Of a stretch of 32,880 nt of DNA, positions 9,495-26,418 are shown in pieces (the first letter of the stretch is position 1; each line of letters opens with the position of its first letter). A model generated the notes under the pieces. That model did not search any database. It was not told where the DNA came from and saw only the letters and a list, made by a program, of their open reading frames with translations. The position numbers and the translations under genes are program-made. The stretch is taken from positions 1 to 32,880 of the forward strand of contig JAFRLY010000039.1 in the NCBI GenBank assembly GCA_017431005.1, written 5' to 3'. The stretch comes from Clostridia bacterium (lineage in GTDB: Bacteria > Bacillota > Clostridia > Christensenellales > Aristaeellaceae).

Positions 9495-10424
9495 ATGAAG
9501 ACAGGAACTGAGCCGGTTATGGAAAGCACACCTGTAAAGGATACAAAAGGAGCAGAAAAGCATAAGCACAGATTTCTGAAAGTGTGTGTCCGGATTGCCG
9601 TTATTCTGCTTCTGCTGGCGCTGATCTGCTGCGCCGTCGCGGCCGGGTACGCATGGCATTACAGGTCGCACTACAGAATCAGTTTCTATCAGGAAACATC
9701 CCCCAAGGTCAGCGGCAGCCTCCGGATCGCTGTTATTTCCGACATTCATAACCGCGAATACGGAGAGCACAATGCAGCGCTTCTTTCCGATCTTCGCGCG
9801 CTGAAACCCGATCTTATCCTTTTCCCCGGCGACATGGTGATCCGGGAGCAGGCGGATTATCAGGCCGCGCTGGAGCTTATTTCGGAATCCGCCGCAATCG
9901 CGCCGTGCTACGGCGTGCTGGGCAACCACGAAAGTGAACGGATTTATTATAAGGATGACAAAGAGCTGCCCAAAAAGCTTGAAAACGCGGGATTGAAGCT
10001 CCTTCGAAACGCCTCTGAGAAAATTCTCATCGGACGCGATACCGTTCAGCTTTTCGGCACAGAGGGCACCGCCTACGGGTTCGAGCAGTACGGCGGGCGG
10101 GAATTCATGGATAAAGCAGAAGCGGATCCCGATGCGTACGGTATCGTCATGGCCCATATTCCGGTTCTTTTCAACGCGCTGTCCGATTATGATTTTGATC
10201 TGGGAATTGCTGGGCATGTGCACGGCGGAATCATAAAGCTTCCTTTCATCGGAGGGCTGTACACGCAGGAGGAAGGTTTTTTCCCAAGGCTCTGTGTGGG
10301 AAAATACACACTGGATAAAGGACAGTCTCTGATTATCAGCGCAGGGCTCGGGGATTCCGCGCTCTTCCCGCCGCGGATCAACAATCCCCCTGAACTGGTT
10401 ATCATTGACGTTGACCGGTATTGA
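9495..10424 (+). CDS. Membrane-anchored metallophosphoesterase
   Basis: A 309-residue protein with a basic N-tail (HKHRFLK), one membrane helix at about 31-51 and a calcineurin-like phosphoesterase domain. The metal ligands are all visible: D83-x-H85 (SDIHN), G112-D113, G143-N-H-E146, H221 (MAHIP) and GHVHGG (240-245). By the positive-inside rule the catalytic domain should be outside the membrane. YaeI/YkuE-type relatives hydrolyse phosphoester or pyrophosphate bonds, including lipids such as UDP-diacylglucosamine. It is the first gene of the operon, where Gram-positive capsule loci often carry a CpsB phosphatase, and its stop lies 21 bp before the Wzz-like gene. Removal of phosphate from a lipid or polymer intermediate is inference. 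The ribosome binding site is weak. Confidence 0.85.
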   Translation: MKTGTEPVMESTPVKDTKGAEKHKHRFLKVCVRIAVILLLLALICCAVAAGYAWHYRSHYRISFYQETSPKVSGSLRIAVISDIHNREYGEHNAALLSDLRALKPDLILFPGDMVIREQADYQAALELISESAAIAPCYGVLGNHESERIYYKDDKELPKKLENAGLKLLRNASEKILIGRDTVQLFGTEGTAYGFEQYGGREFMDKAEADPDAYGIVMAHIPVLFNALSDYDFDLGIAGHVHGGIIKLPFIGGLYTQEEGFFPRLCVGKYTLDKGQSLIISAGLGDSALFPPRINNPPELVIIDVDRY

Positions 10425-10444: not shown

Positions 10445-11794
10445 ATGCAGGAGACAAACAGATTAAAAGCATCCGGAGAGGCAGCTTCATCCGGTATCCC
10501 CGGCAGAAGGCGGGGCAGCCTGCGAAGCACTCTGGAGCTGTTTTGGAAACACAGGTTTCTCGTTATCGTTTCCTTTCTGATCATTTCCCTTGTATTGTGC
10601 GGCTTTCAGTATTACAGGAATACTTACACAGCCGGCACAGTGCTGTCACTCGATTATGAGGAAGCATCCAAAGGTCTGGCGCCTAACGGGACCAGGTTTA
10701 ATATTTTCGAGATCCGAAGCGCCGAAGTCATGGACCGGCTGATCGGGCACGCAGGCCTGGAGGGAAAAGTCACGCCGGAGGAGCTGAGCAGATGCATCAG
10801 CGTAAAAGCAACACATGACAAAAATATCAGCGGCAGCGTGAACTATATCAGCACCTCTTTTGTGATCAGGTTCACAAACACAGGCATCATCCCGGATATA
10901 AGCGCGGAGGATATGCTGTCCCTCCTCTGTAAAACATACCGTGAATACTTTGTGGAGCACTACGGATTCAGCCATTCCATCCTGTCCTTTAATATCGATG
11001 ATCTGAAATTCAATGACGAGTACCTGATGACGGTCGACCTGCTGGAGCTCAAATGCAGCCAGCTGGAGAAATATGTGCAGCTTCGCAACCGGGAAAGCAA
11101 GAACTACCGGGATCCCGGTACGGGAATGACCTTTTCCGAGCTGGAACAGCGGGCGAAAAACTTCCATACCTACGATATTGCCAAGGCGCGTTCCTACATC
11201 ATCGAGAACGGCATCGTGAATGACAGACCGAGCCTGAATACCACGCTGAGCTATAAAATCCGGATGGACCGGCTGATGTACAACCAGCTGATTGCCGCAT
11301 ACAACGAAGACAGCAGGGGCATCCGGCTGTACGATACCGCCATGAGCGCGATTGTCATGATTCCCACACAGGATCAGGCCATGCAGTACTATATGTCCAG
11401 AACCAAAACAGGGATGGACAATATGGCGCTTCACGCAGACGCGCAGCTGACAGGCGCAACGGAGCGGATGGAGAAGATCAAGTACAACACCTACCTGACG
11501 GACAAGCTGAAAGAGAATGGTTCCGATCCGATTCAGAAGAAAAAGGCTGATGCCATGATCGATGAGATGCAGGCATCGCTTGAAAAGCTTGCCGCGGACA
11601 TCCAGGCGGCGGACAGCTCGTATACGAGCGCAAAGGCCCGCAACTATCTCAGCTTCAGCGATGACAGCGTCGGATTCGCGGGACAGATCGGCCTGATCAG
11701 ATCGCTACTCTGCGCCGCGCTGATCCTGGCTGCCGCATTCATCTGTGTGTTCCTGTGCAAAACTCTCTCCGGGAAGAAGGTGAACGAAGCATGA
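10445..11794 (+). CDS. Wzz-like polysaccharide chain-length / co-polymerase protein
   Basis: A 449-residue protein built like a polysaccharide co-polymerase: an N-terminal membrane helix (about 35-55, in FLVIVSFLIISLVLCGFQYY), a long extracellular region rich in helices and a C-terminal membrane helix (RSLLCAALILAAAFICVFLC) followed by a short basic tail. Such proteins set repeat-unit chain length with Wzy. The segment after TM1 (TAGTVLSLDYEEASKGLAPNG) matches the equivalent segment of the next protein, so the two are paralogues. There is no Walker-A kinase domain. ATG 10445 follows GAAGGAG (10431-10437). Its stop overlaps the next start as ATGA (11791-11794), implying translational coupling. 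Confidence 0.75.
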   Translation: MQETNRLKASGEAASSGIPGRRRGSLRSTLELFWKHRFLVIVSFLIISLVLCGFQYYRNTYTAGTVLSLDYEEASKGLAPNGTRFNIFEIRSAEVMDRLIGHAGLEGKVTPEELSRCISVKATHDKNISGSVNYISTSFVIRFTNTGIIPDISAEDMLSLLCKTYREYFVEHYGFSHSILSFNIDDLKFNDEYLMTVDLLELKCSQLEKYVQLRNRESKNYRDPGTGMTFSELEQRAKNFHTYDIAKARSYIIENGIVNDRPSLNTTLSYKIRMDRLMYNQLIAAYNEDSRGIRLYDTAMSAIVMIPTQDQAMQYYMSRTKTGMDNMALHADAQLTGATERMEKIKYNTYLTDKLKENGSDPIQKKKADAMIDEMQASLEKLAADIQAADSSYTSAKARNYLSFSDDSVGFAGQIGLIRSLLCAALILAAAFICVFLCKTLSGKKVNEA

Positions 11795-13626
11795 AAGAAT
11801 TCAGTGTTTTCCGCTATCTGAAAAAGTTCAGCCTGTTGATCTTCCTCCTGGCCGTCATCGGCTCCCTGGCCGTATATCTCTACGGAAAATCTCAGCAGCG
11901 TTATATTGCCTCCACGGTCATTCAATACACAAATGACGGTGCGAAAGACGGCTTTACTCCGGACGGAAGCCCGCTGAATGTTGAGGAAATCTTTTCACCG
12001 ACAGTTATCGACGCCGCTCTGGCGGATCTGGGTCTTCAGTCCAATATTGATTTCATCCGTTCCAGCGGCTATGTGGAGGAAGTGATTCCGGAAAAGCAGC
12101 AGAAGCTGAATGAAGCGCTGCTGGAAAAGGGTGAGGAATCCAGTTATATTGCGGATACGTACCGGGTATATTACGTCGGAGACAACGATTCCGGCGAGGA
12201 ATTCGCGTTGAATATGCTGGACGCGATTATCAACAACTACTATGAATTCTATGCCGGGAAATACGTGGAACAGCCGCTGCAGAACAACGGCGTTTCCGTG
12301 CTTTCCGAAGGAAAATACGACTATCTGGAAAGCGCGCAGGTGCTCGATGATTCCGTTTCGGAGATGATGGATTACCTGCTGGACAAGCGGTCCTCCTATC
12401 CGTACTTCCGCTCGGTTGAAACGGGATATACCTACAGTGATCTGTATCAGATCTACAGCTTTTTATACGATTATGAGATCCCGAGCCTGTACGCTTCGAT
12501 CCTGACCAGCGCGGAAACAAACGATATTGATCTGCTGACAAGCCGGCTGAAGCAGGACTGCGAAGACATGCAGCTGTATATCGACAACAGGCAGGAGCGC
12601 GCCGACGCCCTGAAAAAGCTGATCGATACATACAGTGAAAGAAACAAGGAAATCATGGATTACCATTATCACGGTTCATCTGATCAGGAGATCACCACAG
12701 AGTATATTCTGAAGGATGTGGAGTATGATCAGAAAAACGGTGAAAAGGAAACGACGTATGACGGACTCATTCAGGAATATGTGAACCTGAACATCAGCAT
12801 CCGTCAGAAAGCCATTGAGAAGGAGCACAAGGAATACCTGCTTTCTGTATTCGATGAAGCCGGCCGGAGCAATGGCAGCGCCCCTGCACAGGAAGAGCTC
12901 CTGGGCAAAATTGAACACTGTGCAAATCTTGCAACGGAATACTATCAGTATGTGGAAAATACGGGACATGAGCTGAACCGCTATCTCAGCGCGAATTACC
13001 TGGCGATGGTCAGCAGCATCAGCGTTCAGCCGGCGGTGAACATCAGGCTCTACCTCATCATTGCGGTTGTCCTGTTTGTGCTGGTGGGCGGGATCATCGC
13101 AGTCCTGCTGGGAAGAACCCTCGACTTCATTGACTATTTCCGGTATGTCGATAAAACCGTGCAGCTGCCGAACCGGGCCAGATGCGACGTATACATCAGC
13201 GAGTGCGCGGAACGTCTTCTCGCCGAGAATTACTCCTGTCTGGCTCTGAAGATGGATTCCCTGGGCCGCCTGTCAAGTACATACGGACGCGAGGCCGGCG
13301 ACAAAGTGCTGCGGAATTTCGCAATGATTCTGAAGAGCTTCGGCGATCCGCACGGATTTGTGGGCTATAACGGCAGCGGCGTTTTCCTCGTCTTCTTCCC
13401 GGATTGTTCGGTTCAGAAAACAGAGGTGATTCTGGAAGCAATCGACCGGCAGGTTCAGAAGCATAACAAGCTGAACCCGGATATGACAATTGATTATACC
13501 TGCGGAAAGGCTGTTTCAAGCGCGGACAACACTTTTGAGATCAGAAAACTGCTCCGCCTTGCGCTGCAAAGGATGGAGGAAAAGCAGGCCTCCCCTGCCC
13601 GGAAGGACAGCAGCGATAAAAACTGA
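11791..13626 (+). CDS. Wzz-like protein fused to a degenerate GGDEF domain
   Basis: A 611-residue protein. TM1 is at about 14-32, followed by a 390-residue extracellular helical region, TM2 at about 420-441, and a cytoplasmic C-terminal domain of about 150 residues. That domain follows the diguanylate cyclase pattern: LPNRARC at 459 (usual LTGLPNR), LALKMDSLGRLSSTYGREAGDKVL (usual DxDxFKxxNDxxGHxxGDxxL) and then Y526 followed by NGSGV (527-531), where GGDEF is expected. The catalytic GG and the metal-binding acidic residues are absent, and no RxxD inhibitory site precedes it. It should therefore not make c-di-GMP; ligand sensing or protein contact is likelier. It is translationally coupled to its Wzz paralogue. 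Confidence 0.8.
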   Translation: MKEFSVFRYLKKFSLLIFLLAVIGSLAVYLYGKSQQRYIASTVIQYTNDGAKDGFTPDGSPLNVEEIFSPTVIDAALADLGLQSNIDFIRSSGYVEEVIPEKQQKLNEALLEKGEESSYIADTYRVYYVGDNDSGEEFALNMLDAIINNYYEFYAGKYVEQPLQNNGVSVLSEGKYDYLESAQVLDDSVSEMMDYLLDKRSSYPYFRSVETGYTYSDLYQIYSFLYDYEIPSLYASILTSAETNDIDLLTSRLKQDCEDMQLYIDNRQERADALKKLIDTYSERNKEIMDYHYHGSSDQEITTEYILKDVEYDQKNGEKETTYDGLIQEYVNLNISIRQKAIEKEHKEYLLSVFDEAGRSNGSAPAQEELLGKIEHCANLATEYYQYVENTGHELNRYLSANYLAMVSSISVQPAVNIRLYLIIAVVLFVLVGGIIAVLLGRTLDFIDYFRYVDKTVQLPNRARCDVYISECAERLLAENYSCLALKMDSLGRLSSTYGREAGDKVLRNFAMILKSFGDPHGFVGYNGSGVFLVFFPDCSVQKTEVILEAIDRQVQKHNKLNPDMTIDYTCGKAVSSADNTFEIRKLLRLALQRMEEKQASPARKDSSDKN

Positions 13627-13672: not shown

Positions 13673-15052
13673 GTGACGAACAACAGACACATTCGCTATG
13701 GCCCGGACGCTGAGCCGTTTCAGGAAAAGGTACGGAAATGTCCGGCATTCATCGCATTCATCGCCGTTGCGTGTACTATTCTGGCCGCCCTCGGGGACTG
13801 GAAGACGCTCAATGACGCGTATGGAGCGCTGCCGAAGGCCGTCGCGCTTGGGACAATTGTCTGTGCTTTCCTGAATTTTCTTGTTGCCGCTGATTTCGCA
13901 AAGCTGAAAAAAGCAATGGGCTTTTTCCCGGTATTCCTGCTTCTGATCGCCGTCTATATCCTGATCAGCATGTATATATGGGTCACGGATTTCTCCCGGA
14001 CCTCCTCCATCAGCAGAGCGGGACAGAAGATCCTGTTTCAGACGATTACGATCATCTATGCGGTCTTCATGTGCTATCTGTTTGAGGAAAAAGCGGTCAA
14101 TTACCTGTTTTTCAGCCTGTGCGCGGCAAACGCCGCCATTATGCTGCTGGAGATGCCCAGGTACGGATTTGCCGAGAGCATCACCTCCGTTGTGACATGT
14201 ATCGTCACCTTCGGAGAGGCGGAAGGGTTTGTGCGCTCACTGGAAATACACGACATCACCTTCCTCTTCGGGCAGTTTCTGATCTACTATTTGATGTTCG
14301 CGCCCCGGAGCACGAAGGCGGAAAAGCGGATGAAGCGCTGGGGCGTGATTCTCTGTGTCTTCTTTATGCTGGTGGGGCTGAAAAGAAGCACATTCCCGGC
14401 AGTGCTTCTTGTGTGTATATATGTGAAACTGCTCCGCCTGCCGCGGAAACCGCAGAAGTTTATTCTGGCAACAGGAATCGGCCTGTTCCTGTTTTTCTAC
14501 CTGTATCTCTGGCTCACACGGTCCGGAATCCTTGTAGCTTTTCTGGAATCGCTGGGAGTCGACATGATGGGACGCGATGTGCTGTGGAGCCTGCCGAACG
14601 ACTATTATCAGCTTTCCCCTTTATGGAAGGGGCTGGGCTTTGAAGCCGTCACAGACCTGGTGAATATGTGGCATCTGGAAGGGCTTATCAACCGTGCGTA
14701 TCCGCTGCATAACGACATCCTCAGGATCTTTATAGAGCTCGGCGCACTGGGGTTCACCCTCTGGGCCGGCATCAATTATATCGTGTACCCGAATTACTGG
14801 ATAAAGAAGCACAATACGGACACCGGCCTGCTGTATATGGCGATCCTTGCCTACATGACTGTAACGTATCTGACAGACAACACCGCGTTCTATTTCTGGA
14901 GCAGCATCGGACTGAAGCTGATTCCCATGAGCTTCAGCTACCGGATTCTGAAATCCGGCAGCCAGGAGAGATGGCGTGCGCCGACGCCGGAGGAATCCGC
15001 CAATGAAATCTGGATGATCGGTATGGAGAGAAGGGCGGAAAATGCTGAATAA
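13673..15052 (+). CDS. Wzy-type O-antigen/exopolysaccharide polymerase
   Basis: A 459-residue polytopic protein with about 11 hydrophobic segments and a long outer loop late in the sequence. The loop contains GRDVLWSL and then HNDILRIFIELGALGFTLW, the pattern typical of the Wzy_C / O-antigen ligase family. These enzymes join lipid-linked repeat units on the outer face of the membrane. The start is GTG at 13673, with GGAG at 13662-13665 seven bp upstream; no ATG fits. Its last 11 bases overlap the following gene. The position between the Wzz-like pair and the glycosyltransferases is normal for a Wzx/Wzy-dependent locus. Confidence 0.85.
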   Translation: MTNNRHIRYGPDAEPFQEKVRKCPAFIAFIAVACTILAALGDWKTLNDAYGALPKAVALGTIVCAFLNFLVAADFAKLKKAMGFFPVFLLLIAVYILISMYIWVTDFSRTSSISRAGQKILFQTITIIYAVFMCYLFEEKAVNYLFFSLCAANAAIMLLEMPRYGFAESITSVVTCIVTFGEAEGFVRSLEIHDITFLFGQFLIYYLMFAPRSTKAEKRMKRWGVILCVFFMLVGLKRSTFPAVLLVCIYVKLLRLPRKPQKFILATGIGLFLFFYLYLWLTRSGILVAFLESLGVDMMGRDVLWSLPNDYYQLSPLWKGLGFEAVTDLVNMWHLEGLINRAYPLHNDILRIFIELGALGFTLWAGINYIVYPNYWIKKHNTDTGLLYMAILAYMTVTYLTDNTAFYFWSSIGLKLIPMSFSYRILKSGSQERWRAPTPEESANEIWMIGMERRAENAE

Positions 15053-16226
15053 ACTGAAGCGATTGCCGGTTTATCTGAAAAATGTATTTCTCCTCGCCGT
15101 TCTCTCGCCCGTTGCCGCGGTGCTGCGCAGAACGAACGGGGCCTACCGTCATGTCTGGCTGGTAACGGAGCGCGGGTTTGACGCCAGGGATAACGCCTAC
15201 TGGTTTTTTCGTTATTTACGAAAGCACCATCCGCAGATCAACGCATGCTATGTAATTGATCCGGAAAGCCCTGACTTCCCGAAGGTTGCGCAGCTTGGCC
15301 GTACCGTCAGATGGCGGTCGGTTCAGCATTATCTGCTGTACCTGGCTGCCGATTATCTGATCAGCACCCATGTACAGCCCGGAGCCCCCGATCTGATGGC
15401 ATATTACCATCTGCGTCATATCGGAATACATCCGGGAGGAAAAGAGATTTTTCTGCAGCACGGGATCATCAGCAACGGAATGGACTGGATGCATTATCCC
15501 CGCCTGAAGGTTGATTTTTTTGCCAGCGGCGGAAAGATGGAATATGATTACCTTGTCGCGGAATATGGTTTCCCGGAGGGGATTATTCAGTACACAGGGC
15601 TGTGCCGTTTCGACAACCTCATCCGGGGAAATGCCCCATCCGGGGAAATCCTTGTCATGCCAACCTGGCGCGGGGTAAATTATCCTCAGGGGGAACGTTT
15701 TCCGGAAACCGCTTATTACCGGCATTTTCAGTCCCTGCTGAATAATCCGCGCCTGCTCCGTCTCCTGGAGGAGCGGGATCTCAGGCTGATTTTTTATCCC
15801 CACATTGAACTGCAAAAGGAACTGGACAGATTCAGTTCACCCTCAGATCGGATTATTCTGGCAAGCTGGCGGGATTATGACGTCCAGACTCTTCTGATGC
15901 GCTGCAATGTGCTGATTACAGATTATTCCAGCGTGTTTTTCGATGCGGGCTACATGGAAAAGCCGGTGATTTATTATCAGTTTGATCTGGAGGAGTTCCG
16001 GAAATACCATTATCAGGAAGGTTTTTTTTCCTATGAGAAGCACGGCTTCGGGCCTGTCGTGCAGACAGAGGATGAGCTGCTGAACGTCCTGTATGCGTGT
16101 GCCGGAAATGATTTTCAGATGCAGAAGGAGTACCGTGACCGCCTGGATGCATTTTTCCCGGTTCGGGACGCGCAGAACTGTGAGCGGACATATCGGATTC
16201 TCCGGCAGATGACTGCCGGAATATGA
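15042..16226 (+). CDS. CDP-glycerol glycerophosphotransferase-like protein (TagB/TagF family)
   Basis: A 394-residue protein covering the PF04464 domain. The hallmarks are FLQHGIISNGMDW (catalytic His in the QHG motif), ILVMPTWRG, FYPHIEL (second His) and TDYSSVFFDAGYMEKPVIYY near the C-terminus. The family adds glycerol-phosphate or ribitol-phosphate from CDP-polyols to a glycan or lipid-linked acceptor, as in wall teichoic acid. Here it may decorate or bridge the exopolysaccharide repeat unit with a polyol phosphate. No gene for CDP-glycerol or CDP-ribitol synthesis is present in the window. It overlaps the Wzy gene by 11 bp. Confidence 0.85.
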   Translation: MLNKLKRLPVYLKNVFLLAVLSPVAAVLRRTNGAYRHVWLVTERGFDARDNAYWFFRYLRKHHPQINACYVIDPESPDFPKVAQLGRTVRWRSVQHYLLYLAADYLISTHVQPGAPDLMAYYHLRHIGIHPGGKEIFLQHGIISNGMDWMHYPRLKVDFFASGGKMEYDYLVAEYGFPEGIIQYTGLCRFDNLIRGNAPSGEILVMPTWRGVNYPQGERFPETAYYRHFQSLLNNPRLLRLLEERDLRLIFYPHIELQKELDRFSSPSDRIILASWRDYDVQTLLMRCNVLITDYSSVFFDAGYMEKPVIYYQFDLEEFRKYHYQEGFFSYEKHGFGPVVQTEDELLNVLYACAGNDFQMQKEYRDRLDAFFPVRDAQNCERTYRILRQMTAGI

Positions 16227-16263: not shown

Positions 16264-17382
16264 ATGCTGCGTGTGCTTCATTCCGTCAGCAATATGGCGC
16301 GTGCGGGAATCGAAACCATGCTGATGAACTACTACCGGGAGATGGACAGGAGCCGGATCCAGTTTGATTTTCTGGCAAACAAACCCGTCCCCGGAGAATA
16401 TGATGATGAGATACGCGGGATGGGAGGCAGGGTTTTCTTCAGTCCGGGACTCAACCCGCTGCATTATCCGCAGTACAGGCGTTTTGTATCGGATCTTCTG
16501 AAAAACAATCCCGACATCCGGATCGTCCACGCGCACAACGAGGCGATGGGACTCTATGCTCTCCAGAGCGCCAAAAGCGCCGGAATCCGTGTCCGGATCG
16601 CGCACGCGCATAATACACGTATCATCCGTGATTACAAGTATCCCCTGAAGCTGGTCTGCAAACAGCTTCTGCCCGGCGCAGCGACTGATTACTGGAGCTG
16701 CGGAACAGAGGCCGGGATCTATTATTACGGAGAAAAGCGATGGAAGGCTTCCGGTTTCATTCTGCATAACGCGATCGATGTGAGTAAATTCGCTTTCCGG
16801 CCGGAAACGCGCGAACAGCTCAGGCGGCTCCACGGTGTGAACAACTGCTTTGTAATCGGCCACGTGGGCAGGTTTAATGTTCAGAAGAATCACAGCCGTC
16901 TCCTGGATATTTTCGCAGAAACTGCAAAGGCCGCTCCCGATGCCCGCCTTGCCCTGATCGGTGTGGGCGAACTGGAGCAGTCTTTAAAGGATAAAGCCCG
17001 GACAATGGGCCTTCAGGATAAGATACTCTTTCTGGGGCAGATGGCCGACGTCAGCGGCTGGTATCACGCGATGGACTGCTTTGTAATGCCTTCACTGTTT
17101 GAAGGGCTGCCGGTGGTTGGCATCGAGGCGCAGGCTGCCGGATTACCCTGCTTCTTCTCCGATCCGGTCACGGATGAGGTATTGCTCTCTCCGGATGCGT
17201 GCAGAATTTCCCTCCGGGCAGACGACACGGAATGGGCCAAAGCAATTCTGGCAGTAAAGAACTCGGAAAAAGCGCGGATTCAGGGAGCAGATATTATCCG
17301 CCGGGCTGGATATGATATTCATACGGAAGCACGGAAACTGCAGGAGACCTATCTGGAGATGGCGGAGCGTGCGTATTCCTGA
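16264..17382 (+). CDS. GT4 family glycosyltransferase (EpsF-like)
   Basis: A 372-residue GT-B glycosyltransferase. The N-terminus MLRVLHSVSNMARAGIE with the donor-side Gly, the middle HVGRFNVQKNHSRLLDIF and the C-terminal EGLPVVGIE (EX7E motif) are characteristic of GT4 retaining enzymes. The closest pattern I recognise is the EpsF-like group of Gram-positive exopolysaccharide loci. It would add one sugar to the lipid-linked repeat unit on the cytoplasmic face. GGAGG at 16250-16254 supports ATG 16264. The sugar donor and linkage cannot be read from the sequence. Confidence 0.88.
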   Translation: MLRVLHSVSNMARAGIETMLMNYYREMDRSRIQFDFLANKPVPGEYDDEIRGMGGRVFFSPGLNPLHYPQYRRFVSDLLKNNPDIRIVHAHNEAMGLYALQSAKSAGIRVRIAHAHNTRIIRDYKYPLKLVCKQLLPGAATDYWSCGTEAGIYYYGEKRWKASGFILHNAIDVSKFAFRPETREQLRRLHGVNNCFVIGHVGRFNVQKNHSRLLDIFAETAKAAPDARLALIGVGELEQSLKDKARTMGLQDKILFLGQMADVSGWYHAMDCFVMPSLFEGLPVVGIEAQAAGLPCFFSDPVTDEVLLSPDACRISLRADDTEWAKAILAVKNSEKARIQGADIIRRAGYDIHTEARKLQETYLEMAERAYS

Positions 17383-17448: not shown

Positions 17449-18600
17449 ATGATCAATATGCAGAAAACGCCGAAGCGGATCGCGATGATCGGTCACAAAT
17501 TTATCCCGTCCAGGGACGGCGGGGTGGAGGTTGTTGTCAGCAACCTTGCGCCGCATCTTGTGGAAACCGGATACGATGTGACCTGTTATAACCGGACGAA
17601 CGAACAGTTCAGAAAGCTTCGCAGGGACGGGAAACTGGCATGGGAATACCGGGGCGTCCGTCTGGTCTGGACGCCGACCGTGAACCGCCGCGGACTGGCT
17701 GCCATGTCCTCATCGGTTATCGCGACGGTCATGGCAGCCTTCAGCCGGTTTGATCTCATTCATTTCCATACGGAAGGCCCGTGCGTTCTCTGCTGGCTGC
17801 CGAGGCTGTTCGGCAAAAAAATCGTGGTTACGGTCCACGGGCTCGATCATCAGCGGCAGAAATGGGGCAGGTTCGCTTCCGCCTATATCATGCTGGGTGA
17901 GAAGATGGCCGTCCGCCATGCCCACAGCATCATTGTGCTGAGCGAGGGTGTGAAGACCTATTTCCGGAAAAAATACGGACGGGAAACCGTTCCGATCCCG
18001 AACGGAATCGATCCGGCTGAGATCCGCCCCGCTTCTGAGATCACGAAGCAGTTCGGCCTCTCCCCCAGGGACTATATCCTGTTCCTGGGCCGGCTGGTGC
18101 CGGAAAAGGGCATCCATTATCTCATCGAAGCCTATCAGAAGCTGTCGACGGACAAAAAACTGGTAATTGCCGGAGGCACATCGGACACGGATGATTACGT
18201 GAAGCGCCTGCATGAAATGGCGGGAAGCAATCCTTCCATCATCTTCACTGGTTTTCAGCAGGGACAGGTTCTGGAGGAGTTATACAGCAACGCCTATCTG
18301 TATGTGCTGCCAAGCGATCTGGAGGGAATGCCGCTGACGCTTCTTGAAGCCATGAACTACGGCTGCTGCTGCGTGACTTCCGACATCGGTGAGTGCGCGG
18401 ATGTTATGGACGGCTGCGGCATCACTTTCCCCCGCGGGAATACGGAGGCTTTGCGGGAAGCGCTGCAGAACCTGTGCGATCATCCCGAAAAGGCGGAGGC
18501 ACGCCGCACGGCGTCCCGTGAAATGGTCACCTCCAAATATACCTGGCAGGAAATCACGGCGCAGACGCATGAACTGTACCGGAAGCTCCTGGAGCGTTGA
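17449..18600 (+). CDS. GT4 family glycosyltransferase (second)
   Basis: A 383-residue GT-B enzyme. It starts with a Rossmann strand and the loop IPSRDGGVEVVVSNLA, typical of GT4 rhamnosyl/galactosyl transferases. It continues with VVTVHGLDHQRQKW and VPNGID-like IPNGIDPAEI, FLGRLVPEKGIHYLI (donor-domain start) and EGMPLTLLEAM, which carries the EX7E motif. It would add another sugar to the repeat unit. The start is uncertain between 17449 and the in-frame ATG 17458, because AAAGGAA (17439-17445) is close to the first and far from the second. It is only distantly related to the preceding GT4. Confidence 0.87.
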   Translation: MINMQKTPKRIAMIGHKFIPSRDGGVEVVVSNLAPHLVETGYDVTCYNRTNEQFRKLRRDGKLAWEYRGVRLVWTPTVNRRGLAAMSSSVIATVMAAFSRFDLIHFHTEGPCVLCWLPRLFGKKIVVTVHGLDHQRQKWGRFASAYIMLGEKMAVRHAHSIIVLSEGVKTYFRKKYGRETVPIPNGIDPAEIRPASEITKQFGLSPRDYILFLGRLVPEKGIHYLIEAYQKLSTDKKLVIAGGTSDTDDYVKRLHEMAGSNPSIIFTGFQQGQVLEELYSNAYLYVLPSDLEGMPLTLLEAMNYGCCCVTSDIGECADVMDGCGITFPRGNTEALREALQNLCDHPEKAEARRTASREMVTSKYTWQEITAQTHELYRKLLER

Positions 18601-18671: not shown

Positions 18672-20225
18672 ATGAAGCTCGAGCGCACAAAAAACGCGGC
18701 AAGAAACATTGTGTTTGACGGAATATCGGAAATGACGAATATGCTGTTTCCTTTCGTCATCCGCTCTGTCATGCTGCATTTTTTGGGAGCGGAGTACCTG
18801 GGGCTGAACGGCCTGTTCAAATCGCTCCTGATGTTCCTGAACCTGGCGGAGCTGGGTGTGGGCAGCGCGATGGTATTCAGCATGTACAAGCCGATCGCGG
18901 AGGATGACACCCCCACGATCTGCGCCCTGCTGCACCTGTACCGCACCCTGTACAGGATCATCGGCCTTGCGATCGCCGCGGTGGGACTGCTGCTGATCCC
19001 TGTTCTGCGCAGCCTCATCAGGGATGAACTGCCCGCGGACATGAACCTGTTTGTCCTGTATCTGATGAACCTCGGCAACACGGTGCTGACATACTGGCTG
19101 TTCGCCTACAAAGGCAGTCTGCTGCAGGCGCATCAGCGGCGGGATCTGATCAGTAAAGTCACTTTGGCCGTGCGGCTGGCGGAATATACCCTGAAAATTC
19201 TGATCCTGGTCTATACACGGAATTACTACCTGTACCTGGCTGTTCAGCTGCTGTGCCAGATCGTCATCAATATTCTGACAGCGGTATGCGCGTCAAAGAT
19301 GTATCCTCAGTACAGACCGGCCGGGAAGCTGCCGAAGGAAAAAACGCTGGACATTTTCCGGAGAGTGCGGGATCTGTTTACATCCAAGCTTTCCGCCACA
19401 GTTTTCGACTCCGCGGATACCCTGGTGATTTCCGCATTCATGGGTCTGAGCGTTCTGGCGGTTTATCAGAATTATTATTTTATCATCACGGCGCTGCGTA
19501 TGATGCTGGTGGTTGTCCTCAACGCCTGCATGGCGGGTGTGGGCAACAAGCTGGTCATGGAAAGCAGGGAAGCAAATTACCGGGATCTGGAAAAGATCAG
19601 TCTGCTGTTCAGCTGGCTTCTGGGAGTGAGCAGCGCTATGCTGCTCTGCCTGTATCAGCCGTTCATGCAGACCTGGATGGGTGAGGAAAACATGCTGGCG
19701 GTCGGGCTTGTATTCTGCTTCGTTGTTTATTACTATTTCATGGGCGCAAACAAGCTCCTCAATATGTTCAAGGACTCGGCGGGTATCTGGAAAATGGACC
19801 GCTGGCGCCCCTTAACCGCGGCTCTGGTAAATCTGGGCCTGAATCTCGCGACGGTTCAATGGATCGGACTGTACGGCGTGCTTCTTTCCTCTGTCGTCTC
19901 CATTGTTTTTATTCAGATTCCGTGGCTGCTCCGCAATCTCTTTCAGGCAGTGTTTCCCCGTGCAGACAGAGGAAGGTTCGTGCGGCTCTTCTGCGGACTG
20001 ACGGCAGTCGCCCTGATCTCCTGTGCGGCCTCGTGGTTCATCTGCAGCCGGTTTTCCCTGGGTGTATGGCAATCACTTCTCCTGAATGCCGCGGTAAGCT
20101 TCGCGGTGCCGAATCTGTGCTACTGCGTTTTCTTCGGACGCAATCCCCTGCTGAGGGAGAGCCTCACGCAAATAAAAAGAAGCCTGCTGTCCGGATCGGC
20201 GGCAAAGAAAGGTGAAGCCAGATGA
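18672..20225 (+). CDS. Wzx-type polysaccharide flippase
   Basis: A 517-residue membrane protein with about 14 hydrophobic helices, of the polysaccharide transporter (PST) branch of the MOP superfamily. The N-terminus RTKNAARNIVFDGISEMTN followed by FLGAEYLGLNGLFKSLL is typical of Gram-positive capsule flippases. The role is moving undecaprenyl-diphosphate-linked repeat units to the outer face for Wzy. The ribosome binding site AAAAGGAG (18651-18658) is 13 bp from the ATG, somewhat long. Its stop overlaps the next start as ATGA (20222-20225). Confidence 0.9.
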   Translation: MKLERTKNAARNIVFDGISEMTNMLFPFVIRSVMLHFLGAEYLGLNGLFKSLLMFLNLAELGVGSAMVFSMYKPIAEDDTPTICALLHLYRTLYRIIGLAIAAVGLLLIPVLRSLIRDELPADMNLFVLYLMNLGNTVLTYWLFAYKGSLLQAHQRRDLISKVTLAVRLAEYTLKILILVYTRNYYLYLAVQLLCQIVINILTAVCASKMYPQYRPAGKLPKEKTLDIFRRVRDLFTSKLSATVFDSADTLVISAFMGLSVLAVYQNYYFIITALRMMLVVVLNACMAGVGNKLVMESREANYRDLEKISLLFSWLLGVSSAMLLCLYQPFMQTWMGEENMLAVGLVFCFVVYYYFMGANKLLNMFKDSAGIWKMDRWRPLTAALVNLGLNLATVQWIGLYGVLLSSVVSIVFIQIPWLLRNLFQAVFPRADRGRFVRLFCGLTAVALISCAASWFICSRFSLGVWQSLLLNAAVSFAVPNLCYCVFFGRNPLLRESLTQIKRSLLSGSAAKKGEAR

Positions 20226-21256
20226 TCAGCGTAATCGTGCCGGTTTACAAGGTGGAAAAATACCTGCGCCGCTGCGTGGACAGTATTCTCTCCCAGACCT
20301 ATACGGATTTTGAGCTGCTGCTGATTGACGACGGTTCGCCGGACGGATGTCCGCAGATCTGCGACGAATACGCGAAGCTCGATTCCCGTGTGAGGGTAAT
20401 CCATAAACCCAACGGCGGGCTGATCTCGGCCCGGAACGCAGGAATCCTTGCAGCCAGAGGAGACTATGTCTGTATTGTGGACGGGGATGACTGGGCGCTT
20501 GAAAACATGCTGCAGTTCATCCATGACACGGTGTCGCGGTCTCCCGTGCCGCCGGATATGGTTCTGTTCGCGGCAAACAATGTGTATGAGGATCATCTGG
20601 AGGAAACTCTCAACAACGTGCCGGAGGGATACTACGACAGAGCCAGGCTGGAAAAGGAGATTTTCCCTTTTCTTCTTACGGACATGCGGAACGGACTTCA
20701 GGGGGGCGTCATTCAGGCCCATACCTGGGATAAGGCGTTCAGGCGGGAGCTGCTGCTAGAACACTATACACGCGAGGAAAGAATCCGTGTTTTTACCGAC
20801 GTGCCCATGACCTATGAATGCCTTCTGCACTGCCGGAACGTGTATATATGCAACGAACGCTTGTATATGTACAATAAAACCAACGAGGATTCCATCCGCG
20901 CAAAGAGCAGGGAGAACCTGCTGACAAAAAGCTTCCGCTATTTAATCGAATATATGCGGGAGCATATGAGCGGAATCGGACCTCAGATTGACCGCCAGCT
21001 CAACGCATATGCGGCAATGCTGATCATCCGCACGGGAAAGTGGCGCGCCGAAACGGAGCCTTCCCTGCAGGAAGCCGCGCGGCATCTGAAGGAAGGACTC
21101 CGTGAAACGGATATGCTTTCCTTTGTGACCGTAAAAGGCCTGCCCCGGAAAGCAGGCGCCGTGATCCTCCTGCTGAAGATGCGCCTGTATCTGCCGGCGA
21201 TACTGCTTTGCGCCGCCAGGGTCAGGCAGCAGGAAAAGCAGATGAAACAGCCATGA
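20222..21256 (+). CDS. GT2 family glycosyltransferase
   Basis: A 344-residue GT-A glycosyltransferase. It begins MISVIVPVYKVEKYLRRCVD and has the nucleotide-binding IDDGSPDG motif at about residues 36-43, NGGLISARNAGI, and the metal-binding DGDDW (DXD) at about 90-94. This is an inverting enzyme that should add one sugar to the repeat unit. The C-terminal 100 residues are a variable helical extension. The start overlaps the flippase stop, so the two are translationally coupled. Confidence 0.9.
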   Translation: MISVIVPVYKVEKYLRRCVDSILSQTYTDFELLLIDDGSPDGCPQICDEYAKLDSRVRVIHKPNGGLISARNAGILAARGDYVCIVDGDDWALENMLQFIHDTVSRSPVPPDMVLFAANNVYEDHLEETLNNVPEGYYDRARLEKEIFPFLLTDMRNGLQGGVIQAHTWDKAFRRELLLEHYTREERIRVFTDVPMTYECLLHCRNVYICNERLYMYNKTNEDSIRAKSRENLLTKSFRYLIEYMREHMSGIGPQIDRQLNAYAAMLIIRTGKWRAETEPSLQEAARHLKEGLRETDMLSFVTVKGLPRKAGAVILLLKMRLYLPAILLCAARVRQQEKQMKQP

Positions 21257-21312
21257 TGGCTTTATGATTTATGACCATGGTGAAAAAAACCGGAAACGGA
21301 AGGTGGGTAATC

Positions 21313-22803
21313 ATGTATAAACGGAGAGTGCGCGGCTGGTCTCAGCATGTTGATTTCATGCTTCTGGACTGTCTTTGTCTTTTTCTAAGTCTGCTGGCCG
21401 GGTTCCTGCTCATTGAAAAAGAGGGGGTGCTGACTTCCCGTTTTTTCTGGAGGCTGGCGATGGAAGCCACCCTTGTCAATCTGGTCATTATGGTTATCCT
21501 GGATACCTATCACAGCGTGCTGCATCATTCGCCGTGGGATGAGATGGTCCGGCTGCTCAGCCAGACAGGGCATGTGGTTCTCATCCTGCTGATTCTGCGG
21601 CTGCTGAGCCAGACAGCTGAAGCTGATCTGGCAAAGATTACGCTCATTGCTGCTCCCCTTTATATTCTGTCCTGCTACGTCATGCGGCAGACATACAAAG
21701 GCTTTCTGAAGAAAAAGCATCACATTCTCAACCGCTATTCCCTGCTCATCGCGCTTGAAGCCTCCCAGATCCCCACTGTCGTTCCGCGCATCATCCGCTC
21801 AAATTACGGAATCTACCGGTTTATCGGTTTTGCGCTCATGGGCGCTGATCCTTCTGAAGAACAGGCGCGGGAGGCGCTCCGTTCGATCAGGACTCAGTAT
21901 CCGGAGGTTGATACGATCCCCATCGTCGCCACTGCCGATACATTGGAGCAGTATCTGACCAACAACTGGGTGGACGAGGTGTTCCTGGATGTGCCGCCCG
22001 ATGCAAATCTGCCTGTGGATCTGATCAACAGTCTTATGCGCATGGGCATTACGATTCATACTGCGCTGACGAATCTGGATGAAATCGAATCCAGAAATAA
22101 AAATGTGGAATGGATCTGCGGGCAGCTGACGCTTACGACTTCATTAGGCTACATCACAGGCCGTGACCTTCTCCTCAAGCGCGCCATGGATATCGCGGGC
22201 GGGCTGATCGGCAGCCTGATTACGATTATTGTGACGCCTCCGGTTGCGGCGGCAATCTGGCTGTCTGACCCGGGACCCATCTTTTTCTCCCAGACCCGGA
22301 TCGGTGAGAACGGAAAACAGTTCCAGATGTATAAGTTCCGCAGCATGTACAAGGATGCGGAAGCACGCAAAAAGCAGCTGGCCCAGGAGAGCGGCCAGGA
22401 GGACCAGCTCATGTTCAAGCTGGAGCATGACCCACGCATCATCGGACAGAAGCAGCTTCCCAACGGTGAATGGAAAAAAGGTATCGGCGGCTGGATCCGG
22501 GATCTGTCCATTGATGAGCTTCCTCAGTTTTTCAATGTCCTGAAGGGTGACATGTCTCTGGTCGGAACCCGCCCGCCCACAGTGGACGAGTGGCATCGTT
22601 ACGAGCCCTTCCACCGTTCCAGAATGTCCACCAGACCGGGAATCACCGGCCTCTGGCAGGTCAGCGGACGCAGCAAGATCCGCGACTTTGACACAGTCGT
22701 CCGTCTGGACCGGGAATACATCGAAAACTGGTCCCTGAAACAGGATATCCATATTTTGTTCAAGACCGTATGGGTTGTGCTGAAGCGAAAAGGGGCCATG
22801 TAA
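21313..22803 (+). CDS. Polyprenyl-phosphate sugar-1-phosphate transferase (WcaJ/CpsE type)
   Basis: A 496-residue initiating enzyme. Four or so N-terminal membrane helices and a CoA-binding-like region come first. The PF02397 catalytic domain begins at KRAMDIAGGLIGSL and contains FFSQTRIGENGKQF, YKFRSMYKDAE, DELPQFFNVLKGDMSLVGTR and RPGITGLWQVSGRS. It transfers a sugar-1-phosphate, often Glc or Gal, to undecaprenyl phosphate and so starts the repeat unit. Being last in the operon is unusual; in many loci it is near the front. ATG 21313 is chosen because AAGGTGG (21300-21306) lies 6 bp upstream, whereas ATG 21271 lacks a site. Confidence 0.92.
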   Translation: MYKRRVRGWSQHVDFMLLDCLCLFLSLLAGFLLIEKEGVLTSRFFWRLAMEATLVNLVIMVILDTYHSVLHHSPWDEMVRLLSQTGHVVLILLILRLLSQTAEADLAKITLIAAPLYILSCYVMRQTYKGFLKKKHHILNRYSLLIALEASQIPTVVPRIIRSNYGIYRFIGFALMGADPSEEQAREALRSIRTQYPEVDTIPIVATADTLEQYLTNNWVDEVFLDVPPDANLPVDLINSLMRMGITIHTALTNLDEIESRNKNVEWICGQLTLTTSLGYITGRDLLLKRAMDIAGGLIGSLITIIVTPPVAAAIWLSDPGPIFFSQTRIGENGKQFQMYKFRSMYKDAEARKKQLAQESGQEDQLMFKLEHDPRIIGQKQLPNGEWKKGIGGWIRDLSIDELPQFFNVLKGDMSLVGTRPPTVDEWHRYEPFHRSRMSTRPGITGLWQVSGRSKIRDFDTVVRLDREYIENWSLKQDIHILFKTVWVVLKRKGAM

Positions 22804-23362: not shown

Positions 23363-24895
23363 ATGAAAATTGCCGTCATTGGCGCCTCGGGAAAAGCCGG
23401 CAGCCAGATTGTACGTGAAGCTCTTTTGAGACGGCATGAGGTCACCGCCATTGTCCGGGATGCGTCAAGGCTGGAAAACCGCAGTCTTCCCATCGTTGAG
23501 AAAAACCTTTTTGATCTGACAACGGACGATCTGCGCCCGTTTGATGCCGTCATAGATGCCTTCGGCACCGCCTTTGATCCGGAAAGCGCAAAGGCGCATC
23601 CGAAAGCCATGGCGCATCTGATTGAGATCATGACCCCGATTCCCCGGACGCGTCTGCTGGTGGTCGGCGGAGCGGGCAGTCTGCTGAAGAGCCGTGCATC
23701 CGGACGCCGGGTCCTTGAGGATATTCCGGAGCAGTGGCGTGCCGTGCCGGAAAATATGGCCGTGGCTTTTGAACTGCTGCAGGCCAGCCGGGTGAACTGG
23801 ACCTGTTTCTCCCCGGCGTTCACGTTTGACCCGGAAGGGCCGCGGACGGGGAAGTATGTCCTGGGCGATAATGAACTGACGTATAACAGCGAAGGCGAGA
23901 GTTACCTGAGCTATGCGGATTTTGCTGTTGCCATGCTGGATGAAACGGAGGACGGCAGATTCAGGGGAAAGCGTTTCACAGCCGCCTCGGAGAAGGAGCC
24001 GCACAGGGACGGCTACTGGGGTACGGAGCCTGTCCGGCCGCAGTTTGAGGGGCTCAGCAATTACCGTCCCCATCTTAATTATGAGCTGACCGGCCAAACC
24101 TTCCGGCTGGTAATGGATACCACGGATGACATAACCGTTCGTTTTCTGACCCGGACCCGGCTGGAATACCGGCGCGGCGGCCACTCCTGGGAGGAAAGCT
24201 ATGAATGCGCCAAAGGCGCGGAAATGGCCTACTTTGTCAACTTCGAGCTGACCGGCGTGCAGCCACGGACGAATATTACGCTCTTCCTGGATACCATGAC
24301 CCGGCTGGTGACGGTCGTTACAACCCGGGCCGGCGTCAAGCCAGGATATCCGACACTGTGCGATGATCAGTTCGAGTTCGGCGCCATCGACGTCGGCGGT
24401 CTCCCCCTTCCGAAAAAGCGGCATCGCTGCACAACGGATCTTGTGGGAAAGAGGATTCACTGGCATTACGGCCCGGGCTTTTCCATCATTCATGTGTATT
24501 ACCACCCCAACTTCATCCGCGCTACCTTTACTCCGGAACGCCTGGCTGAGATGGCGCCTCCTTCCCCGGAGCGCAGGAATGCCTGGAAAGAAAACCCCTA
24601 TGACGAAAAAGCCACCTATGTCAAACTTCGGGAGGGGCTGTACGCTGTGGCCTTCGTGGAGCAGAGCATGGCCCGCACCGGAGGCATAGGCAACAGCCTG
24701 CTGTTTATGATGGATACCGACCGGCTGCATGATGTCGGCCGTTCCTTCGGGCACAGCGGCCAGTTCAGCGGACCCGGATATATGCCGGAAAACTATCTGT
24801 TCGGCGCATACGGCGAGTATGTGGAAAACAGCGTTCCGGATACACTGGATGATGATCCGCCGTTCTACCAGGTTGCAGAGGAGGGGCTGAAATGA
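23363..24895 (+). CDS. Rossmann (NAD(P)H-binding) - MoaF-like fusion protein, copy 1
   Basis: A 510-residue two-part protein. Residues 1-210 form an atypical SDR / NmrA-like domain: GASGKAG (7-13) is the dinucleotide-binding loop, and LLVVGGAGSL and WTCFSPAFTFDP are typical of the YhfK/YwnB-type group. Residues from about 235 to 490 resemble MoaF, in two beta-barrel-like halves: one with AYFVNFELTG and RTNITLFLD, and one with DLVGKRIHWHYG followed by GLYAVAF and a C-terminal ENYLFGAYGEY. MoaF was named from a molybdenum cofactor operon, but its lipocalin-like fold suggests small-ligand binding. The substrate is unknown. AAGGAGG precedes ATG 23363. The stop overlaps the next start as ATGA. Confidence 0.78.
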   Translation: MKIAVIGASGKAGSQIVREALLRRHEVTAIVRDASRLENRSLPIVEKNLFDLTTDDLRPFDAVIDAFGTAFDPESAKAHPKAMAHLIEIMTPIPRTRLLVVGGAGSLLKSRASGRRVLEDIPEQWRAVPENMAVAFELLQASRVNWTCFSPAFTFDPEGPRTGKYVLGDNELTYNSEGESYLSYADFAVAMLDETEDGRFRGKRFTAASEKEPHRDGYWGTEPVRPQFEGLSNYRPHLNYELTGQTFRLVMDTTDDITVRFLTRTRLEYRRGGHSWEESYECAKGAEMAYFVNFELTGVQPRTNITLFLDTMTRLVTVVTTRAGVKPGYPTLCDDQFEFGAIDVGGLPLPKKRHRCTTDLVGKRIHWHYGPGFSIIHVYYHPNFIRATFTPERLAEMAPPSPERRNAWKENPYDEKATYVKLREGLYAVAFVEQSMARTGGIGNSLLFMMDTDRLHDVGRSFGHSGQFSGPGYMPENYLFGAYGEYVENSVPDTLDDDPPFYQVAEEGLK

Positions 24896-26418
24896 AAATT
24901 GCAGTAATCGGAGCAAATGGCAAAGCGGGCAGGCTGATCGCTTTTGAAGCCTGGAAACGCGGACACGAAGTGACCGGTATTCTGCGGGATGCGGATAAGG
25001 CTCCCGGTGTGCGCTATCCTCTGCTGGAAAAGGATCTCTTTGATCTGACCACGGATGATCTTCGGGAATACGACGTCGTCATCAGCGCATTCGGACTGCC
25101 GTTCGGCGGCGATCATCCCGCTGATGCCTATCAGCAGGCTTACGCGCATCTGGCTGAAATCTTCAGTCATCTGCCGGACACCCGGCTGCTGGCGGTCGGC
25201 GGCGCCGGATGCCTGTATACGGATGAAACGCATGAAAAAAGGCTGGTCGACACATTCCCTGAAAACAGCCGTAAGGATCCTGCCGACATGTTCGGAGCTT
25301 ACAGGCTGCTGCAGGAGAGCGGTATCAACTGTACATGGTTCTCCCCTGCCGTCATCTTTGATCCCCGCGGAAAGCGCACGGGTGAATATATAACCGGACC
25401 GGATGAAGTGGTTAAGAACAGCAGCGGGGAAAGCTATATCAGCTACGAGGATTACGCATGCGCAATGGTGGATGAGGCCGAAAACGGAAAATATATCCGC
25501 CGTCTCTTCTCCGCAGCCAGCGACAGCAGGCCGGTGCGCAAAGAGAAGCCATACCTGGGGCTGCGGCCCGTCAGGCCTGAGTTTGAGGGGCTGAGCCAGT
25601 ACCGGGAACCCTTTAACTATGAACTGGCCGGAACGCTTCAGCGTCTGGTTCTGGATGACGGACGCCGGTTTGCCGCGGAGTTTCTGGACGGACATACGCT
25701 CCGCTGGACCGAACTCGGTCAAAGCGGCACGGTGGAGCATTATGACTGCGCGAAAGGCGGAGAAGACGTATACTTTGTCAACTTTGAGTTTGCCGGCCGG
25801 AAGCCCCGCACAAACATCACCCTGGTGCTGGATACCGGAGACAGGCTGGTGACTATGGTGGAAACCGTCGTTGGCTACCATCCGAAATTCCCTTATATGG
25901 TGGACAGTCAGTTCACGTTCGGAGCTCTGGAGGTGCCGGGTTATCCTCTTCCTGAGCGGAGGCACAAGTACACCGCGGATCTTCTGGGCAAGCGGATTCA
26001 CTGGCACTACGGACCGGACATGGAAATCATACACGTATACTACGCGACGGATTATATACGCGTGACAATGCCCGAAAAGACCGGCTGGGGCGACCGTGAC
26101 CGGAAATCCTGGGACGAACTGGTGGAGCGGGAACCCTATGACGAGCCCGCGCATTATATCAAAATCAAGCCCGGTCTGTATCTGGTCAGCTGTCAGGAGA
26201 AGAACATGGCATGCCGCGGCTGGACAGGCAACTCTCTGCTGTTCCTGATTGACACACGGCGTGTGCATGACGTGGGACGTTCCTTCGGCCATGCGGGATC
26301 TGAAACAGGAAAAATTCATCCGGAAAACTATATCTTCGGCGCTTTCGGTGAATTTGTTCCCAGCGACGGCGTGCTGGAATCGCAGCCCAATCTGTACAAA
26401 GCCAGGCAGGTCTGGTAA
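24892..26418 (+). CDS. Rossmann (NAD(P)H-binding) - MoaF-like fusion protein, copy 2
   Basis: A 508-residue paralogue of the preceding protein along its whole length: GANGKAG (7-13) as nucleotide-binding loop, LLAVGGAGCL, GIN-CTWFSPA, a MoaF-N half with VYFVNFEFAG and RTNITLVLD, and a MoaF-C half with DLLGKRIHWHYG, GLYLVSC and ENYIFGAFGEF. Conservation is strongest in the MoaF-like half (for example KRIHWHYGP and HDVGRSFGH are shared). The two genes overlap by 4 bp, which favours equimolar expression and possibly a heterodimer. They diverge enough to be an old duplication. Neither has a signal peptide. Confidence 0.78.
   Translation: MKIAVIGANGKAGRLIAFEAWKRGHEVTGILRDADKAPGVRYPLLEKDLFDLTTDDLREYDVVISAFGLPFGGDHPADAYQQAYAHLAEIFSHLPDTRLLAVGGAGCLYTDETHEKRLVDTFPENSRKDPADMFGAYRLLQESGINCTWFSPAVIFDPRGKRTGEYITGPDEVVKNSSGESYISYEDYACAMVDEAENGKYIRRLFSAASDSRPVRKEKPYLGLRPVRPEFEGLSQYREPFNYELAGTLQRLVLDDGRRFAAEFLDGHTLRWTELGQSGTVEHYDCAKGGEDVYFVNFEFAGRKPRTNITLVLDTGDRLVTMVETVVGYHPKFPYMVDSQFTFGALEVPGYPLPERRHKYTADLLGKRIHWHYGPDMEIIHVYYATDYIRVTMPEKTGWGDRDRKSWDELVEREPYDEPAHYIKIKPGLYLVSCQEKNMACRGWTGNSLLFLIDTRRVHDVGRSFGHAGSETGKIHPENYIFGAFGEFVPSDGVLESQPNLYKARQVW

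Follow-up and report, generated by a model that had tools for sequence, protein, structure and literature searches.

The window analyzed here, a stretch of 32,880 nucleotides from a Clostridia bacterium (assembly GCA_017431005.1, contig JAFRLY010000039.1), includes a polysaccharide operon with two tandem genes for polysaccharide co-polymerases (PCPs). The second of them, PCP2 (11791..13626, forward strand; 611 amino acids), carries a GGDEF-type tail where Wzc-like proteins have a tyrosine kinase. It is near certain that PCP2 consists of a PCP followed by a tail with the GGDEF fold, and, judging from its residues, the tail is a catalytically dead GGDEF domain with a fixed motif of its own. We propose that Wzy-dependent polymerization is coupled in a regulatory manner to GGDEF/EAL signaling and assign this interpretation a probability of about 0.6. 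The coupling probably occurs via a docked partner, and our confidence in its precise mode is low.

The homologues share the start residue of PCP2, and its ATG overlaps the stop codon of the preceding gene by 4 bases (ATGA). Transmembrane helix 1 (residues 14-34; 11830..11892) is a helix in both AlphaFold2 (AF2) models and is hydrophobic in sequence. It is followed by the outer (exocytoplasmic) PCP domain identified with Foldseek (residues 35-417; 11893..13041), by transmembrane helix 2 as found in the AF2 models (residues 418-447; 13042..13131) and by the pseudo-GGDEF domain (residues 451-602; 13141..13596), which is recognized by both sequence profile and predicted fold; all these features are on the forward strand. 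The arrangement helix 1, large helical domain, helix 2 is that of the AF2 models, and from it we infer the sidedness with respect to the membrane. The PCP region was folded alone because VIA on the full model was filled by the GGDEF domain. A Foldseek search with residues 1-448 produced 12 matches at E<=0.001, every one of them Wzc or WzzE, with Wzc at the top (E 4.6e-7), and Wzc was also among the matches returned by the fold search with the whole protein. The VIA Z value of the PCP region was 13.5 with Wzc versus 10.9 with unrelated helical proteins, a modest margin, and therefore the PCP assignment rests on the Foldseek ranking, the topology and the accompanying genes. The Wzz Pfam model PF02706 did not match the window PCP2, and four relatives matched it with E values of 0.003-0.006, below the cut-off. 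GcbC, a protein that contacts LapD, is one of the VIA matches tied at the top for the tail. A preliminary description, made from the sequence alone, had proposed two helices around a large outer region followed by a GGDEF-like tail, and the AF2 models, Foldseek and the profile confirm this arrangement. Neither of the two checks set beforehand as able to refute the proposal did so: the fold of the tail is predicted to be that of a GGDEF domain, and the resemblance is common to 72 distinct sequences instead of being confined to one.

These 72 sequences, which include the window protein and remained from 93 open reading frames (ORFs) after removal of duplicates, were used for all residue counts. 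An active diguanylate cyclase was considered and ruled out by the residues, as GG(D/E)EF was found in none of the 72. The preliminary description had located NGSGV, residues 527-531, in the place of GGDEF; the replacement holds, but the register shifts one residue further along, as it is GSGVF (528-532) that pairs with the GGEEF of DgcR in the alignment. The loop at the former active site reads YNGSGVF (residues 526-532; 13366..13386, forward strand), an instance of the family motif [YH]NGxGxF, where N527 is conserved in 72/72, G528 in 67/72, G530 in 65/72 and F532 in 71/72 sequences. [YH]NGxGxF is a new motif, fixed across the 72 sequences, and not the product of random decay. The first acidic position of the GGDEF motif corresponds to G530 and is acidic in three of the 72; position 531 is acidic in none, and position 492 is a lysine in three. 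We take positions 492, 530 and 531 to be the phosphate and metal residues of active GGDEF domains. Position 495 is N or S in 68/72 and the aspartate of the GD step, 504, is kept in 70/72, both of which presumably contact guanine in active GGDEF domains, while R500 stands in place of the usual histidine in 69/72. The RxxD inhibitory site (I-site) is absent from its place at residues 519-522 (13345..13356, forward strand). As had been noted for the window protein, no RxxD precedes the motif, and none was found at the inhibitory-site spacing in any of the 72 sequences.

The former active-site loop is among the best conserved stretches of the tail. Conservation of the tail matches that of the outer domain, both within the close group of 24 (0.68 versus 0.70) and between groups (0.26 versus 0.27). 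The ratio dN/dS was 0.05-0.20 for the tail and 0.07-0.12 for the outer domain in those six of the 15 pairs whose dS was below 1 for both regions, the other nine being near or beyond saturation. By these comparisons, the tail is under purifying selection.

Searches in genome samples of increasing breadth showed how far the family extends. Matches at E<=1e-20 were found in 9/396 genomes of the order sample, all spanning nearly the whole protein, and 54/391 genomes of the class sample matched at E<=1e-25. The latter were sorted by match range, open frame and later direct reading into 20 with full-length GGDEF-tail proteins (the window's own included), 11 with EAL-tail proteins, 19 that match the PCP part only and 4 that match the GGDEF part only. 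The frames of the 19 are <=514 amino acids, too short for a further domain, and one of them is cut by a contig end. In the phylum sample 3/398 genomes matched at E<=1e-30, with no new GGDEF-tail protein: that of the window itself, G585 (a tail-less case from the same class) and G1050, in which the 552-amino acid frame gave no GGDEF or EAL match (G and L numbers denote our genomes and loci). That the fusion could be confined to the window sequence was rejected, given the homologues across the order and class samples. Thus, the family search suggested in the preliminary description revealed that many Clostridia conserve a non-catalytic, built-in GGDEF domain; most of the named relatives are metagenome-derived genomes from gut and rumen that carry the label Clostridia or that of one of its families. 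A PCP-GGDEF ORF was obtained from 58/64 loci, two of them partial. L050 and L059 were left out even though tblastn spans the whole protein; the likely cause is that the simple ORF caller retained an antisense ORF. In L079, L095, L097 and L098, also left out, the matches stop at or near the locus end.

A tree of the PCP part was built with a quick method from 154 of 196 rows, omitting near-copies and weak tail-less rows. It separates PCP1 (65 rows, none tailed) from PCP2 (72 rows), and leaves another 17 tail-less rows, all on long branches, outside the two groups. PCP2 itself comprises one GGDEF clade (55 rows, support 99), one EAL clade (10 rows, support 97) and seven tail-less rows. The only two rows of the GGDEF clade labelled tail-less, L062 and L095, are both cut by contig ends, and the clade keeps its tail through identities down to about 26%. 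The tail labels need 4 changes on the tree versus a mean of 53 when shuffled. A single origin of each tail type is the simplest reading of these sequences, not a proof, because the tree is unrooted and has long branches. Some proteins related to the family depart from the common form. The PCP-GGDEF protein of G572 (L144:8678-11317, forward strand) carries about 270 extra residues that are charged and of low complexity. Short transmembrane GGDEF proteins in G451, G600, G792 and G759 match the tail alone; two of them, L140:8562-9299 from G451 and L141:8100-8843 from G792 (both on the forward strand), have a related degenerate GGDEF (NGGNEF), lie outside polysaccharide clusters and are adjacent to a gene that we take to encode a PHP-like phosphoesterase.

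The association with cyclic di-GMP (c-di-GMP) signaling is found in the relatives. In a far clade of GGDEF-tail proteins, about 28% identical to the window PCP2, 24/24 loci long enough to include the position have, 5.7 kb downstream, a separate gene for a transmembrane EAL protein (452-460 amino acids; a hydrophobic N-terminal stretch plus an EAL domain). A GGDEF remnant toward the N terminus of this protein, suspected by eye, is not claimed because Pfam gives EAL only and our own GGDEF profile gives 1.4 bits. A membrane GGDEF protein of 764-803 amino acids with an intact RMGGDEF is encoded 8-11 kb from the PCP gene in six of the eight far-clade genomes searched, in stretches chosen because the genome search had shown a GGDEF match there; the gene is upstream of the PCP gene in five genomes and downstream in G485. 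The candidate gene lies at a contig end in G522 and on another contig in G559. c-di-GMP-I riboswitches are present in the G047 and G485 clusters. All GGDEF/EAL matches of the genomes G047 and G477 (both 96% complete) are confined to a single stretch of 20-22 kb that surrounds the PCP genes, and in G047 that stretch also holds the only c-di-GMP-I riboswitch found in the genome. The genome-wide riboswitch search covered 10 genomes with at most 150 candidates per genome scored, and 14 control genomes gave none; therefore, its negatives are weaker than those of cmscan. PilZ was found in 0/19 genomes searched, compared with 5/14 control genomes. We give about even odds to the idea that some clusters hold a complete circuit of riboswitch, cyclase, EAL proteins and receiver co-polymerase.

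Sister PCPs with an EAL domain at the tail position were found in 11/391 class genomes; two of these genes had been skipped by the ORF caller and were recovered by direct reading. The EAL tails of G635 and G452 keep nearly all EAL motif residues except one glutamate, which we take to be the loop-6 glutamate, and that of G635 also lacks the second aspartate of DDFG. The other nine keep the E..IRW-like, N, E, D, K and Q positions and have CG[IV]E in place of the usual EG[IV]E, a sequence pattern that would suit a binder and not an enzyme. Direct binding of c-di-GMP by the EAL-type tails is plausible. A c-di-GMP-I riboswitch scores above the Rfam gathering score in 7/11 EAL-tail clusters (L129, L130, L132, L134, L135, L138, L139); it precedes the gene run with PCP1 and PCP-EAL in six of them, and in L139 it follows PCP-EAL, ahead of later genes. 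Examples of riboswitches in related polysaccharide clusters are L163:6545-6628 and L138:4734-4825 on the forward strand and L130:13805-13888 on the reverse strand. A GGDEF or GGDEF-EAL gene is present in four of the 11 fetched EAL-tail stretches (L133, L134, L136, L139).

Several results weigh against a coupling to c-di-GMP. The riboswitch is missing from four of the 11 EAL-tail clusters, from the three tail-less clusters scanned (L146-L148) and from the scanned stretches of the far-clade genomes G477, G468, G503 and G476, and the c-di-GMP-I riboswitches of G503 and G572 lie elsewhere in the genome. In the window's own clade, the ORFs of L036-L063, searched with our own hidden Markov models, include no GGDEF/EAL gene besides the PCP, and no riboswitch was found in 10 loci (the window, L142, L036, L037, L045, L046, L055, L061, L173 and L176). 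Furthermore, the G092 genome, which is 90% complete and encodes a PCP-GGDEF 69% identical to that of the window, has no other GGDEF, EAL, PilZ or c-di-GMP-I riboswitch. Incompleteness of the genome may explain these gaps; nonetheless, G092 constitutes genuine evidence for persistence of the tail in the absence of c-di-GMP. Local c-di-GMP genes and a riboswitch were not found and G092 shows no c-di-GMP enzymes; the c-di-GMP step is therefore inferred for this clade, which would still answer to c-di-GMP through proteins encoded elsewhere. Besides the tail, the window genome encodes five GGDEF domains, of which two have RYGGDEF, and one EAL. This single EAL match (G000:C29:50756-52519, reverse strand) is in a 758-amino acid frame with the order GGDEF-EAL-GGDEF, and frames of 745-747 amino acids with two GGDEF matches and one EAL occur in G045, G097 and G116.

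In the mechanism that we propose, PCP2 would be the regulatory subunit of the tandem PCP pair in a Wzx/Wzy-type polysaccharide operon, and its dead GGDEF tail would stand where Wzc or CpsCD has the tyrosine kinase. The tail would act as a non-catalytic receiver docked by a GGDEF/EAL-type partner, and its bound state would set the PCP ring and hence the length or output of the polymer. For the GGDEF type, docking is preferred over direct binding of c-di-GMP because the tail has lost the residues of both known nucleotide sites and because EAL partners have genes close by in one clade and are fused to the PCP in the sister clade. The dead GGDEF domain at the kinase position, together with the c-di-GMP riboswitches that often accompany the EAL-tailed relatives, suggests control of the polymer by a second messenger rather than by phosphorylation. 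The preliminary description had placed a sensor within the chain-length protein and compared it to PelD. The built-in non-catalytic GGDEF domain and the link to c-di-GMP at the level of the family agree with the former, but a ligand mechanism like that of PelD is unsupported because PelD binds c-di-GMP via RxxD (PMC7112168), the site that the 72 sequences lack.

A purely structural tail, that is a compact module standing in for the kinase ring and keeping the PCP oligomer together without reading a signal, would fit the persistence of the tail in G092 with no visible c-di-GMP enzymes, the missing I-site and catalytic residues and the lack of local signaling genes in the window's clade. We nevertheless consider it unlikely. 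The PCP2 clade itself includes proteins with no tail, and therefore a tail is not needed for assembly in general; moreover, the EAL-tailed sisters are often in clusters with c-di-GMP riboswitches, and the former active-site loop ranks among the best conserved parts of the tail. G092 would also be explained, with no need for c-di-GMP, if the former active site bound a guanine nucleotide (GTP, GDP or ppGpp) and reported the nucleotide or growth state to the polymerase. The retention of the GD aspartate and of N or S at position 495 is compatible with this possibility, but it is improbable given the loss of the phosphate and metal residues at 492, 530 and 531, and the aspartate may be structural.

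The odds are poorer still for a direct c-di-GMP receptor that, like PelD, uses the inhibitory site: even though a Gram-positive PelD binds c-di-GMP with a degenerate GGDEF (PMC7112168), RxxD is absent at the right place in all sequences. A decaying or accidental fusion with no function could account for the loss of the catalytic motif, yet it has a negligible chance of being correct in view of the tail's retention by one clade down to about 26% identity, the low dN/dS values and a new motif fixed in the 72 sequences. Docking of a GGDEF/EAL-type partner remains the reading that we prefer.

Among the closest known systems are the PCP-2a/2b proteins of the Wzc and CpsC-CapA type. They share with the window family the two helices around a helical outer domain, the cytoplasmic part after the second helix and a gene located beside those for Wzx, Wzy and a sugar transferase, and Wzc is the best structural match. 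They differ in that the window family has a pseudo-GGDEF (or EAL) tail instead of the bacterial tyrosine kinase, has two PCP genes in tandem and is accompanied by no kinase gene in the loci searched. A tyrosine kinase within the operon was looked for by blastp of the ORFs and by six-frame tblastn with the genome's own kinase, and was rejected: there were no matches in the family loci despite recovery by the same blastp of 7/7 kinase control loci, which had been fetched from seven of the genomes. TIGR01007 kinases score above the cut-off in 18/24 genomes, on other contigs or >500 kb from the PCP genes. In the passages of PMC12220298 consulted, the regulatory part of PCP-2 is a tyrosine kinase, either fused to it or encoded separately, and its phosphorylation of PCP-2 is believed to govern ring assembly and thereby chain length. 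Chain length in Wzy-dependent systems is ascribed there to this tyrosine phosphorylation, although how the effect passes from PCP to Wzy is not yet clear, and c-di-GMP control is described for synthase-type systems. By analogy, the part that phosphorylation plays on the PCP ring could fall to a docked or liganded GGDEF/EAL module.

PelD, including that of Bacillus cereus, likewise serves a polysaccharide system as a membrane subunit and has a GGDEF domain that is degenerate and non-catalytic. However, it consists of GAF and GGDEF domains and binds c-di-GMP via RxxD (PMC7112168; PMC8461298), and Pel is a synthase-type system (PMC7112168), whereas the window family has a PCP fold, a Wzx/Wzy-type cluster and no RxxD. 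BcsE and Alg44 also exert post-translational c-di-GMP control on an exopolysaccharide machine (PMC8461298; PMC4443731), but they belong to cellulose and alginate systems, have other receptor folds or sites and are not PCPs of Wzy systems. The use of GGDEF/EAL domains as docking surfaces has parallels in LapD-GcbC and in hubs such as CdgI, which, unlike the proteins described here, are not part of a co-polymerase. Degenerate GGDEF domains of E. coli make protein contacts, and CdgI retains its I-site (PMC5635695). The names Wzx, Wzy, Wzc and Wzz do not appear in PMC8461298, a review of how c-di-GMP controls the polysaccharides of biofilms, and among titles and beginnings of abstracts listed by searches of the open-access PMC literature, no paper on a PCP with a GGDEF or EAL tail was found. 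The PCP-like proteins described here carry a regulatory module absent from the descriptions in the portions of the literature consulted. GGDEF/EAL modules at the position of the kinase suggest a second, independent control route for Wzy systems. The family also provides a natural tail series (none, GGDEF, EAL) with which to study the control of polymer length by a cytoplasmic tail, as well as a candidate output of c-di-GMP signaling for Clostridia of the gut and rumen, where PilZ was not found in the genomes searched.

The PCP2 gene is encoded together with Wzx-like, Wzy-like and glycosyltransferase genes, all on the forward strand. It is preceded by a gene for a membrane metallophosphoesterase (9495..10424; Pfam Metallophos, 60.5 bits) and by PCP1, the tail-less paralogue (10445..11794), whose listed ORF opens at TTG 10421, although by inspection ATG 10445 is the likelier start. 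Downstream are genes for a Wzy-like polymerase/ligase (13673..15052; PF04932, 29.1 bits, just under the cut-off of 31.7), a member of the CDP-glycerol glycerophosphotransferase family (15042..16226; PF04464, 141 bits), two GT4 glycosyltransferases (16264-17382 and 17449-18600), a Wzx-like flippase (18672..20225; PF01943, 41.8 bits), a GT2 glycosyltransferase (20222..21256) and an initiating sugar-phosphate transferase of the Bac_transf type (21271..22803; PF02397, 200 bits). A PCP1-type gene adjoins the tailed PCP in 68/70 GGDEF-tail and 9/9 EAL-tail ORFs counted. Among the 70 distinct GGDEF-tail ORFs, a Wzy-like gene is <=2 genes away in 61 and a phosphoesterase gene in 50; the latter is at this distance in 9/9 EAL-tail ORFs. 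The count includes loci of 4.8 kb, too short to reach the phosphoesterase gene, and most exceptions are short loci.

The metallophosphoesterase gene tracks the PCP pair in GGDEF-tail, EAL-tail and some tail-less clusters, and its product may be part of the polymer machine. The window genome has a second tandem PCP pair, without tails (G000:C12:79513-81617; L145). Adjacent ORFs of 510 and 508 amino acids at 23363-26418 resemble tandem duplicates in their start and motifs, as judged by eye. At the contig end, 32565-32880, there is a 104-base tandem repeat in three copies (98% match), and the ORFs that enclose it repeat the same peptide.

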